Origin: Flaviaesturariibacter aridisoli
GTDB lineage: Bacteria > Bacteroidota > Bacteroidia > Chitinophagales > Chitinophagaceae
DNA: 34,640 nucleotides
Direction: 5' to 3'
NCBI RefSeq assembly: GCF_004343705.1
Contig: NZ_SKFH01000032.1
Span: 1 to 34,640 of the forward strand
The notes under the pieces are model-generated. The model was given only the letters and a program-made list of their open reading frames with translations, made no database searches and was not told the origin of the DNA. Numbering within the stretch: position 1 is the stretch's first letter; each line of letters starts with the position of its first letter. Shown in pieces: positions 2,189-31,638 of the stretch. The position numbers and the translations under genes are program-made.

Positions 2189-2273
2189 GGGAAAAACGTC
2201 GCAAAAGTTACGCCTTTAACAGCCATTTTACCGAAATGCTTCCGACTTCCCACTTCCGACTTTCAAACTTTCT

Positions 2274-3390: not shown

Positions 3391-3441
3391 ATTAACCGGT
3401 TAATTCATCAACCAGTCAACTGATCAACCTATCAACCAGTC
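3391..3441. repeat. AT-rich palindrome and 24-bp direct repeat over the epimerase start region
   Basis: The perfect 14-nt palindrome ATTAACCGGTTAAT lies at 3391-3404. It is followed by two copies of atcaaccagtc at 3407 and 3431, 24 bp (eight codons) apart. The composition is unlike that of the neighbouring genes. The second copy lies where the start codon of the next gene should be. Confidence 0.7.
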
Positions 3442-4444
3442 TACCACACTCGTCACCGGCGGCACCGGTTTTCTCGGCGCCTACATCATCAAAGAACTCG
3501 TACAGCGCGGCGAATCCGTGCGCGCCATCCGGCGGAGCAACAAGCTGCCTTTCTTCATTGAAAAAGAGATTCTCGACAAGGTGGAATGGGTGGAAGGCGA
3601 CATCCTCGACGTGCTGTCGCTGGCCGACGCGATGCAGGGCGTGGACCGTATCGTGCATGCCGCTGCCCTGGTGTCTTTTCACAGCGCCGACCGCAAGCGC
3701 CTGCTGCAAGCCAACCGCGACGGCACCGCCAACGTGGTGAACGTAGCGCTGGAAGAAGGCGTGCGTCGCCTCGCCTATATTTCTTCGGTGGCCGCGCTGG
3801 GCCGCACGCGCGCCGGCGGCCTCGTGGATGAAAGCAAGAAGTGGTCGGAAACGAAAAGCAACACGCAGTACGCCGTGAGCAAGCACCTCGCCGAGATCGA
3901 GGTGTGGCGCGGCTTTTCCGAAGGCCTGGATGGCGTCATCCTCAACCCCAGCACCATCCTCGGCTTCGGCGACTGGCACCAGAGCTCGGGCGCCCTCTTT
4001 CGCAACGCCTGGCGCGGCTTTCCCTGGTACACCGAGGGCATCAACGGGTTCGTGGGCGTTGAAGACGCCGCCCGCGCCACCGTAGAACTACTCTTCAGCG
4101 ACATCAGCGAAGAGCGCTTCATCGTCAATGGCGGCAACTGGTCGTTTCACCAACTGCTCAACGCGATGGCTGACGGCTTCGGAAAGAAGCGGCCGGCACG
4201 CGAGGCCACGCCCTTCCTCGGCGAAATTGCGTGGCGGATGGAAGCACTGAAGTCGAAGCTCTCCGGCCGCAAGGCCCTGCTCACCAAAGAAAGCGCCCGC
4301 GTGGCCCACAGCCGCACCTCGTTCGACAACAAGGCGATCCTGGAAGCGTTGCCGGGATTTCAATTTACCCCGCTCGAAGAGGTCATTGCCAAGGCTTGCG
4401 GGCAGTACAAAGAAGCAGTGGCGACAGGCCAGGTCGCGCCATGA
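3431..4444 (+). CDS. NAD-dependent epimerase/dehydratase (extended SDR), start codon unusual
   Basis: Cytoplasmic nucleotide-binding oxidoreductase of the extended SDR family, of the type acting on sugar nucleotides or dihydroflavonol-like substrates. The frame upstream of GTG 3518 encodes LVTGGTGFLGAYIIKEL, the essential Rossmann motif, so the gene must start before it. Between the in-frame stop at 3401 and that motif there is no ATG, GTG or TTG. ATC 3431 would give (M)NQSTTLVTGG, exactly the length expected for the family. Further on are the usual AALVS segment, SSVAALG, and the YAVSK catalytic motif. It may be cotranscribed with the dehydrogenase upstream. Either a rare ATC start, a broken start or a sequence error is possible; the function call is firm at family level only. 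Confidence 0.78.
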   Translation: MNQSTTLVTGGTGFLGAYIIKELVQRGESVRAIRRSNKLPFFIEKEILDKVEWVEGDILDVLSLADAMQGVDRIVHAAALVSFHSADRKRLLQANRDGTANVVNVALEEGVRRLAYISSVAALGRTRAGGLVDESKKWSETKSNTQYAVSKHLAEIEVWRGFSEGLDGVILNPSTILGFGDWHQSSGALFRNAWRGFPWYTEGINGFVGVEDAARATVELLFSDISEERFIVNGGNWSFHQLLNAMADGFGKKRPAREATPFLGEIAWRMEALKSKLSGRKALLTKESARVAHSRTSFDNKAILEALPGFQFTPLEEVIAKACGQYKEAVATGQVAP

Positions 4445-8857: not shown

Positions 8858-8886
8858 AAAGCCCCGCCTTCGGCGGGGCTTTTTGT
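8858..8886 (+). terminator. Rho-independent terminator of typA
   Basis: AAAGCCCCGCC, a TTC(G) loop and GGCGGGGCTTTTT form a strong stem with a T-run immediately after the typA stop. The 95-bp repeat element begins at its 3' edge. Confidence 0.93.
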
Positions 8887-8979
8887 TTACAGTTTATAGT
8901 TTATAGTTTATAGTTGGCTGACGCGAATACCGCCACGCCGCATAGCGGAACTTAAAACTGTAAACTATAAACTATAAAC
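8885..8979. repeat. 95-bp inverted-repeat element, gene-less copy (MITE-like)
   Basis: The left arm (8885-8920) and the reverse complement of the right arm (8951-8979) agree at about 25 of 29 positions; both are built of tttatagt units. The left end runs into tagttggctg, matching the right end of the element at 30558-31092 (27 of 30). The right end, reversed, runs into agttttaagtt, matching that element's left end (21 of 24). It is thus an inverted, internally deleted copy of the four-helix-bundle element, keeping only about 30 bp of interior. It is wedged between the typA terminator and the stop codon of the EEP gene. Confidence 0.82.
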
Positions 8980-17650: not shown

Positions 17651-17757
17651 GGTTCTCAGGGTTTTTAAGGTTTATAGGGTTCTTAAGGTTATGGGTGAGA
17701 GGGTGCAGCGACCTTAAGAACCCTATAAACCCGAAGAACCTTAAAAACCTCGTAAAC
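17651..17757. repeat. Long imperfect inverted repeat between meaB and the ligase gene
   Basis: The arms at about 17670-17689 and 17711-17730 pair almost without fault (tttatagggttcttaaggt with accttaagaaccctataaa), with a 21-nt loop; outer parts (gtttttaagg / ccttaaaaac) pair again after a 9-nt insertion in the right arm. It lies between two divergent genes. It is A/T-richer than its surroundings and is of another sequence family than the tttatagt element. Confidence 0.8.
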
Positions 17758-17766
17758 CTTTTTGGC

Positions 17767-30526: not shown

Positions 30527-30554
30527 AAAAAACGCCCCGGTGGGGCGTTTTTTT
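30527..30554 (+). terminator. Rho-independent terminator
   Basis: AAAAAACGCCCC, GGT loop, GGGGCGTTTTTTT directly after the outer-membrane protein stop. The left end of the four-helix-bundle element begins 4 bp downstream, the same arrangement as behind typA. Confidence 0.93.
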
Positions 30555-30557
30555 ATT

Positions 30558-31092
30558 AGTTTATCGTTTGTAGTTTTAAGTTTATAGTCAGGCCTCTTCA
30601 CAAAACGATGCCATCCGCGAAAATCGTTTCTATGCCTACTATTCAAAACCTGGAAGATGTGCTGGTGTGGCAAAAGGCCCGTTGCCTGGCCCGCAAAATT
30701 TATGGCCTTACGTTCGAGCCGCCCCTTTCACTGGACTTTCGCCTCAAAGACCAGATGCGGGGAAGCTGCGGCGCGGTAATGGATAACATAGCCGAAGGAT
30801 ATGGACGTGGCAGTCAATTTGAAGCCGTCAATTCGTTCAGCTATTCCAAAGGTGAAGCCGAGGAGCTTAAATCCCAACTGTACCGTGCTTTAGACGTAGG
30901 CTATATCAGCCAGGGTAAATTTGACGAACTGTATGCAGACAGCAAGGAAATTATCCGGATGCTCAGTTCCTGGATCGAATACCTGAATACCACGAACATC
31001 AAAGGGTTAAAATTCAAAGGTCGCTAGTAGGCAACCCCTGTTTTACCGACATTTACAGCCAACTACAAACTGCAAACTATAAACTATAAACT
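30558..31092. mobile_element. 535-bp inverted-repeat element carrying a four-helix-bundle gene
   Basis: The left end (30558-30588) and the reverse complement of the right end (31062-31092) agree at about 26 of 31 positions; both are runs of the tttatagt type. The inner edge of the left end is agttttaagtt and that of the right end, reversed, is tagttggctg; both edges are also found in the 95-bp element at 8885-8979, in swapped order because that copy is inverted. It contains one gene only, with no transposase. Mobility is inferred from the two copies with matching ends. Confidence 0.65.
30608..31027 (+). CDS. Four-helix-bundle protein (23S-IVP/Avd-like)
   Basis: A 139-aa (131 if started at ATG 30632) cytoplasmic, all-helical protein of the family called four helix bundle protein, related to the protein in intervening sequences of some 23S rRNAs and to the Avd accessory protein of diversity-generating retroelements. 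Marks are VWQKAR near the start, LKDQMRGSCGAVMDNIAEGYGR (seen as LKDQMRG, NIAEGYGR), and SKGEAEELKSQLYRALDVGYI. Many bear basic surfaces that can bind RNA or DNA. No reverse transcriptase or variable repeat is nearby, so a retroelement is not supported. The gene sits alone between the inverted ends of the element. Confidence 0.9.
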   Translation: MPSAKIVSMPTIQNLEDVLVWQKARCLARKIYGLTFEPPLSLDFRLKDQMRGSCGAVMDNIAEGYGRGSQFEAVNSFSYSKGEAEELKSQLYRALDVGYISQGKFDELYADSKEIIRMLSSWIEYLNTTNIKGLKFKGR

Positions 31093-31638
31093 TTGCGAGT
31101 CCTACTGCCCGTTATATGTCTCCTGATGTTTGCAGCTTGCCAAAACAGCGACAGCGACATCCGTCGCTTTAGCGGCAAAGTGGAGCAGGTAGAAGAAGCG
31201 CGTGAGGTGCGGAGCCTCTTCAGCCAGACCGGCCGCCTCAAGGCCATTCTCAAGGCACCGCTGATGCTGCGCCACCTCGGCGACTCCGTGGTGATTGAAT
31301 TTCCCCGGACGATGCATGTCGACTTTTACGATTCGCTCAACAAGATCGAAAGCTTCCTCGACGCCCGCTATGCCCGCTACGTGGAGAACCGCGCCCTCGT
31401 CCTGCTGCGCGACTCGGTGCGCGTCATCAACCGCAAGGGCGACACCCTTAAAACACAGGAACTGTGGTGGGACCAGAACGCCCGGAAGTTCTACACCGAC
31501 TCGATGGTGCACATTGTGCAGAAAGACAAGCGCATCAACGGCGGCAAAGGCCTCGAGGCCGGCCAGGATATGACCTGGTACCTCATCAAGCAACCCGTGG
31601 GCACCGTGCTGGTGGGGGGCGACGTGCTGCCGCAATGA
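31093..31638 (+). CDS. lptC: LptC-like LPS export lipoprotein
   Basis: A 181-aa envelope lipoprotein of the LptC family, which passes LPS from the LptBFG exporter to the periplasmic bridge. Signal MRVLLPVICLLMFAAC with Cys16 as the lipidated residue, then a beta-jellyroll: SGKVEQVEEAREVRSLFS, PRTMHVDFYDS, ARYVENRALVLLRDSVRVIN, LWWDQNARKFYTD. In Bacteroidota LptC is often a lipoprotein. No ATG precedes the signal: the start is TTG 31093, at the very edge of the inverted-repeat element, whose insertion may have replaced the original start region. Other lpt genes are not nearby. Confidence 0.85.
   Translation: MRVLLPVICLLMFAACQNSDSDIRRFSGKVEQVEEAREVRSLFSQTGRLKAILKAPLMLRHLGDSVVIEFPRTMHVDFYDSLNKIESFLDARYARYVENRALVLLRDSVRVINRKGDTLKTQELWWDQNARKFYTDSMVHIVQKDKRINGGKGLEAGQDMTWYLIKQPVGTVLVGGDVLPQ

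Follow-up and report, generated by a model that had tools for sequence, protein, structure and literature searches.

Why does a lone gene for a small helical protein lie between two matched, inverted rows of a short DNA word? The question arises in Flavisolibacter-group bacteria, in which a helical IVP protein is met together with such mirror-image rows. The window analysed here (34,640 nucleotides) is a whole contig, C32, of a 4.37-Mb draft genome that is 95.7% complete and is called G000 below. We read the segment as belonging to a large class of Bacteroidota mobile elements in which the IVP protein acts as a dedicated end-recognition factor, and we put the probability of this reading at about two in three.

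The window gene matches the Pfam profile PF05635 (E 2e-28, 99.2 bits against a cut-off of 33.8) and the NCBIfam profile TIGR02436 (E 7e-27, 93.8 bits against a cut-off of 24). Its ORF has no other Pfam domain at E up to 0.001 and is no known transposase, and no known recombinase motif was recognised in the element. The start at 30632 is more likely than that at 30608, because homologues begin at the second ATG (MPT/MAT..). The profile matches and the paired ends (Table 1) bear out the first-pass annotation, which had described a single helical-protein gene of the 23S-IVP family between inverted repeats. The element occupies the spacer between a BamG-like gene (244 bits with the NCBIfam BamG model, below its cut-off of 250) and lptC, and is not inside an rRNA gene. 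A terminator had been proposed before the element, and a terminator-like inverted repeat indeed stands upstream at 30527-30553. The element had also been said to reach the start of lptC; the identity of that gene is backed by TIGR04409 and PF06835, but its TTG start at 31093 is only the one chosen by the ORF lister. Likewise, the 'tttatagt' ends are real but are one version within a wider class, because the ends are heptad arrays with a GTTT core and three variable bases. With up to two mismatches allowed, the window holds 9 copies of GTTTATAGTTTATAG, where 0.01 would be expected.

Table 1. Word arrays and the IVP gene in the window
Feature	Position	Strand	Description
Single unpaired array ACTTCCG	2239..2262		Resembles the word of the L020 IVP element (by eye)
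Single array, reverse complement GGTTGATA	3408..3446		Resembles the DLDVWKK-subfamily word of other species (by eye)
Single array ACTTCCG	6993..7012		
Gene-less inverted pair	8885..8979		Word of the window element; arms 8885-8915 and 8949-8979, 33-nt loop
Gene-less inverted pair	17651..17759		9-nt word GGTTCTTAA, the word of the G000 IVP element L015
Left array	30558..30588	+	About 4 heptads GTTTNNN, period 7; 26/31 identical to the reverse-complemented right array
IVP gene (PF05635/TIGR02436), 131 aa	30632..31027	+	Upstream ATG in the ORF at 30608
Right array	31062..31092	-	Inverted heptads, NNNAAAC on the + strand

This arrangement is general in the window's genome. All 10 PF05635 matches in G000 (9 of them above Pfam's cut-off) lie between inverted arrays, and every locus has a separate word of 7-9 nt, such as GTTTATA, GGTTCTTAA, ATCGGCA or TACATGAG (by eye). 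Array scores at these loci range from 18 to 81, against a 99th percentile of 15.0 and a 95th of 12.0 when left flanks are aligned to the right flanks of other loci. The ends are paired around such genes, as had been supposed, and not randomly scattered. Among 76 loci of the genus and order (two of 78 were dropped for short flanks), 50 exceed the 99th percentile and 63 the 95th. An enlarged set of 122 loci (two of 124 dropped) holds 91 that score at least 15 and 107 that score at least 12, the weak arrays being the 31 below 15 and the 15 below 12. For 30 loci from across the phylum, taken as the best-scoring matches, the percentiles were drawn from the set itself: 12 pass the 99th and 19 the 95th. 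PF05635 itself was present in 116 of 148 sampled phylum genomes, with a maximum of 16 matches in one, and reaches 18 in one genome of the genus. In arms with clear periodicity and scores of 15 to 45, the word period is 7 in 235, 8 in 61 and 9 in 2, and the median is 4.4 words per arm. Elements measured 437-606 bp in 15 cases.

Several loci depart from this pattern or add to it. An approximately 490-bp run of GAACTTGTGAACCC-type units in G024 (L183, 14727-15218) far exceeds other arrays, and an IVP locus on contig C48 of G010 (L216) carries several nested arrays of the same word, like an element inserted into an element. IVP genes with inverted word-like arms also occur in records titled as Planctomycetes and Limisphaerales MAGs (L293, L317), where binning errors are possible. 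Between the left array and the start codon, some loci carry a leader motif near GGTGGGAAA, followed in some by CCATG. It was seen at L015, L022, L024, L121, L134, L210 and L216, which span several IVP subfamilies in G000, G020 and G010; a search for leader motifs across IVP loci returned this clade-limited motif only.

The first-pass annotation had supposed a link between the protein and the ends, and the words support such a link. Between genomes, protein identity correlates with arm similarity (Mantel r 0.453, against a maximum of 0.142 in 2000 permutations) over the 51 loci that score at least 15 and lack internal stops. In 20 between-genome pairs with at least 60% protein identity, mean arm similarity is 14.9, compared with 5.3 for an antisense control; 11 of these pairs score at least 15 and 9 fall below, so words can change faster than the protein. 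The subfamily of the window protein was followed through 80 loci from named genomes, mostly Bacteroidota, of which 76 were usable and 4 were dropped. Its GTTT core appears in sense orientation in 56 of 68 left arms and in antisense in 1 of 68, and in only 6 of 103 arms of other subfamilies. Over 447 units, the four core positions carry 1.26, 1.69, 1.54 and 0.89 bits and the linker positions 0.09, 0.17 and 0.22, in a profile phased on GTTT that somewhat favours the core.

The linkers vary freely between elements, yet their order is shared within one element: own arms score a mean of 21.6 and mismatched arms of the same subfamily 11.2. Own-arm scores lie above the 95th percentile at 44 of 76 loci and above the 99th at 22 of 76. 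This comparison of own with mismatched arms is a fairer control than a palindromic-register test, which is biased because the aligner itself chose the register. Two duplicates of genus loci (L269, L277) were kept out of the mismatch, core and register tests and retained in the unit profile. At two orthologous sites (L016/L121 and L021/L134) the word in G000 differs from that in G020, yet both arms agree, which looks like concerted change. Common descent could explain the sharing of a word at one orthologous site. As the whole cause it is disfavoured, because the core is phylum-wide and because words are also shared by pairs at unrelated sites and by gene-less pairs.

The gene-less pairs carry the same relationship beyond the IVP genes. 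In 434.6 kb of G000, a detector of inverted 6-9-nt arrays found 29 pairs, of which 2 contain an IVP gene and 27 are gene-less; it found 10 pairs in 400 kb of G003 (none with an IVP gene) and 8 pairs in 400 kb of G024 (2 with an IVP gene, 6 gene-less). It undercounts, because only 4 of the 6 IVP loci within the sampled stretches were found. Contigs of G010 and G020 brought the number of gene-less pairs to 52, and these were compared with the IVP arms of the 11 genomes that have at least 4 usable IVP loci. The pair's own genome ranked first in 24 (expected 4.7, p 3e-12) and first or second in 33. A good match to the word of an own IVP gene was found for 34 of the 52 and none for 18, and the polarity is that of the IVP element in 33 of the 34. 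Outside the family the sample is thin, with 2 pairs in 200 kb of IVP-rich genomes against 0 in 200 kb of IVP-less genomes, and one of the 2 is a low-complexity run of period 6.

What recurs in these pairs is the arrays, because gene-less loops share stretches of 12-25 nt at most, except in one nested pair. The loops often contain a terminator-like hairpin, and since they share little else, the arrays seem to enclose intervening sequence. An origin as deletion derivatives of IVP elements was rejected because the loops are mostly unrelated. This qualifies an earlier claim, that 8885-8979 is a second, gene-less copy of the window element: the inverted pair is real but does not look like a deletion copy. 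Its DNA fold is pronounced (z -5.0, with 1 of 200 shuffles as good), whereas that of the whole window element is less striking (z -2.7). A diverged counterpart that the array detector missed aligns at its place in G020, and at the site of 17651-17759 G020 has other sequence between equal flanks.

One word, CGTGAGG, occurs in 9 of the 27 gene-less pairs of G000 and has no IVP partner among the 10 found there, perhaps through a lost gene or an assembly gap. Its CGTGAG pairs keep a single polarity in 9 of 9. Examples are L225 (11186-11472), L233 (1-269) and L236 (4950-5089), and the words closest to CGTGAGG are those of IVPs in other genomes. A separate repeat family, of the CATTGCGAG / CTCGCAATG type, lies beside or within gene-less arrays at L001, L003 and L010 (by eye).

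Comparison of equivalent sites bears on movement. The spacer between the BamG-like gene and lptC was followed through 17 genomes, using one of the two lptC copies of G010, and the IVP element was seen there in G000 and G020 (by eye). Gene-less inverted arrays of another word (GTCAAAC/GTGAGAC) occupy this spacer in G003, G006, G009 and G021, G023 is ambiguous, and 10 of the 17 genomes are array-free; in one of these the gap to the lptC match is 136 bp, and in the other nine it is 25-52 bp. A second site, L056, was compared in 16 of 18 genomes, G005 and G001 being left out as having weak matches only. There the element is present in 3 of 16 (G003, G011 and G024, the last with a broken IVP gene), and a 10-nt spacer stands in G009, G007, G006 and G021. 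Elsewhere in their genomes, G006 and G009 do have IVPs that share 81-82% identity with the L056 protein. In G000 and in G010 the site holds a single array made of other words (by eye). Orthologous loci are thus often without the segment.

Of 35 hand-picked pairs of related IVPs, 13 lack similar flanks, and L136 (G021) and L066 (G006) have a common surrounding spacer with different IVP families inside (by eye). No target-site duplication was seen in the junctions read, where the compared genomes are too diverged to reveal one. By sequence comparison, the empty sites, the related elements at unrelated sites and the swapped spacer content show past mobility. The proposal of a small mobile or once-mobile unit with the helical protein as its only gene gains from the sites that lack the element and from the related elements elsewhere.

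The protein family shows low dN/dS where this could be measured. Of 44 close pairs, the 10 with finite dS give dN/dS of 0.056-0.122, with dS below 1 in only two; for the window gene and its G020 counterpart dS is saturated and dN is 0.176. Among 131 proteins, four residues are nearly invariant: Q41 in 128, N52 in 119, E55 in 122 and E78 in 127. The PDB relatives 2gsc and 2rld have 5 chains each, and one further, weak match is to a designed protein. A passage of PMC4990558 describes a Xanthomonas IVP relative as a toroidal homopentamer, and the PF05635 domain was called functionally uncharacterized in 2024, in the relevant part of PMC11270868. Taken together, the comparative data show arrays, their inverted polarity, the match of word to subfamily, presence and absence at sites, a single gene and low dN/dS.

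From these properties a working scheme can be drawn. The element consists of one IVP-family four-helix-bundle gene with an inverted array on either side, each of about 4-5 short words with a pitch of 7 or 8 and rarely 9, and in the window's subfamily a word of 4 core and 3 free nucleotides. A homopentameric IVP ring would read one array at about one word per subunit and keep the two ends joined, perhaps with single-stranded DNA folded back into hairpins. The ring may then promote relocation of its own element and, in trans, of gene-less inverted pairs that carry its word. Cutting and joining of DNA would fall to the IVP protein itself or to host replication and repair. The 4-5 words per arm fit a pentamer without proving one. 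Direct binding of the protein to the arrays, the subunit-word stoichiometry and a DNA rather than an RNA target are what we infer.

A bolder version, which we hold only tentatively and think doubtful, makes the IVP pentamer the recombination machine itself of a new mobile-element class with no known transposase. The ring would read an iterated code on the two inverted arrays, with one core per subunit and the linkers free, and would rearrange foldback DNA. Q41, N52, E55 and E78 would be candidate active or switch residues, and the IVP genes of rRNA intervening sequences and Avd would be offshoots.

A different and unlikely reading takes the protein for a regulator, a TRAP-like ring on words in transcript or DNA. 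The arrays would be its operators, flanking both its own gene and its targets, and would have spread for another reason. The spacing of core and free linker does resemble the iterated sites of a ring protein such as TRAP, and gene-less arrays often enclose a terminator-like hairpin or adjoin start codons (by eye). However, an operator needs neither a second inverted array beyond the gene nor an equal order of linkers in it, and whole units stand at unrelated sites in related species while the sites are empty elsewhere.

Action through RNA is more improbable than regulation. The complementary ends would form a transcript stem that is cut out by RNase III, bound by the protein and copied via reverse transcriptase. 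There is precedent in the known IVP genes within rRNA intervening sequences, whose complementary borders are cut by RNase III according to a section of PMC4990558, and in the homology to Avd of diversity-generating retroelements suggested in part of PMC10053308. The arms tell against it. Among 753 mismatches at 176 loci, counted in arms with scores of 14 to 45, 170 transitions are wobble-compatible and 176 of the opposite kind (p 0.79). With this lack of G-U bias, a sense-RNA hairpin is not favoured as the selected form, and the earlier suggestion that the protein may bind RNA hairpins of the ends is not supported in that respect; DNA is favoured over RNA as the target because the bias is missing. 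Reverse transcriptase fares no better: of 18 genus genomes, 12 gave no PF00078 match, several of these being incomplete drafts, and all 12 carry PF05635 (3 to 18 matches). G000, a 95.7% complete draft, is without a PF00078 match, and G005 has the reverse combination of a PF00078 match and no PF05635 match. Dependence on reverse transcriptase was rejected on this distribution, and the comparison shows no detected need for one.

Still less credible is the view that replication slippage, together with template switching at hairpins, gave rise to the arrays as a side effect, with the IVP gene as a passenger. It would account for the mirrored order of linkers, for words that vary by species yet agree between arms at one site (L016/L121, L021/L134) and for the terminator-like hairpins in many loops. 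It leaves unexplained the phylum-wide core of the window's subfamily, the own-genome words of gene-less pairs and their fixed polarity. Moreover, the only IVP-free control in the genus, a thin one, is the draft G005 (estimated 100% complete, no PF05635 match); it has 1 pair in 400 kb of one contig, against 27 gene-less pairs in 435 kb of G000, 10 in 400 kb of G003 and 6 in 400 kb of G024. Markov shuffles, one for each of the four stretches, gave 0 pairs in all four.

Mobilisation of the arrays in trans by a Y1 (REP-associated) transposase hardly deserves credence. In its favour, 14 of 18 genus genomes have a Y1_Tnp match and the IVP-free G005 has none, and 2 of 20 Y1 genes (L360, L367) are flanked by inverted GTTTNNN arrays. 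Against it, at 0 of the 20 Y1 loci was a 7-9-nt array the best inverted pair found within 500 bp (by eye; many loci have other palindromes), on which count a Y1/REP origin of the arrays was also rejected, and G011, G004 and G008 (62-84% complete) carry 12, 3 and 5 PF05635 matches with no Y1 match. At L360 the arrays lie at 352-383 and 2315-2345, and at L367 at 790-827 and 1831-1861, with the Y1 genes placed as if captured.

If the end-recognition reading is correct, the match of word to subfamily offers a concrete candidate DNA ligand for the PF05635 family. The same match offers a common origin for the ORFs of rRNA intervening sequences and Avd. Should the protein move DNA, this would be a class of mobile element without a known transposase, whose ends change their word while the arms stay matched. 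No description of IVP genes between word arrays was found in the open-licence PMC literature, the scope of the search, with subscription papers and preprints outside it. What is new here is the combination of arrayed ends, a cognate protein and the absence of a known transposase, which suggests an unrecognised, tiny mobile element.

Parallels can be drawn with several known systems. In the RAYT transposases with their REP/REPIN palindromes, as in the IVP elements, a small protein gene goes with inverted sequences of its own and with numerous intergenic copies that lack the gene. The IVP elements differ in that the protein is of another family, an IVP gene and no Y1 gene lies between the repeats of the window element, and the arrays are not the best inverted pairs at the 20 Y1 loci. 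Insertion sequences and MITEs likewise have terminal inverted repeats, one gene and non-autonomous pairs; here, by contrast, there is no known transposase, the words are subfamily-specific and the gene-less loops are mostly unrelated, which disfavours a simple MITE model because that model does not predict such loops. TRAP is a ring protein of 11 subunits with an RNA target. Reading of iterated cores by one subunit per word, with free linkers, may be common to both, yet TRAP differs in its unrelated fold, its RNA target and its number of subunits. Avd of diversity-generating retroelements is a pentamer. As a four-helix-bundle relative with homology suggested in part of PMC10053308 it resembles the IVP protein; unlike its retroelements, the G000 draft yielded no reverse transcriptase.

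Intergenic TAACTGA heptad repeats, reported from Beggiatoaceae, Cyanobacteria and some Bacteroidetes in passages of PMC4679880, are also words of 7 nt that come in small groups, of 2-6 copies in one genome, and whose spread is unexplained. They are mostly direct sets before start codons, with one inverted case, and the passages of PMC4679880 on them make no link to IVP. Closest are the 23S rRNA intervening sequences that encode IVP/S23p in Coxiella, Leptospira and others, described in part of PMC4990558 as selfish or parasitic elements with complementary borders and an RNase III cut. Like the window element, they hold one IVP-family ORF between complementary ends and, in that account, have a scattered distribution. 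Unlike them, units of the window class lie between protein genes, have ends made of iterated 7-9-nt words matched to the protein subfamily, reach 18 PF05635 matches per genus genome and are accompanied by gene-less pairs.
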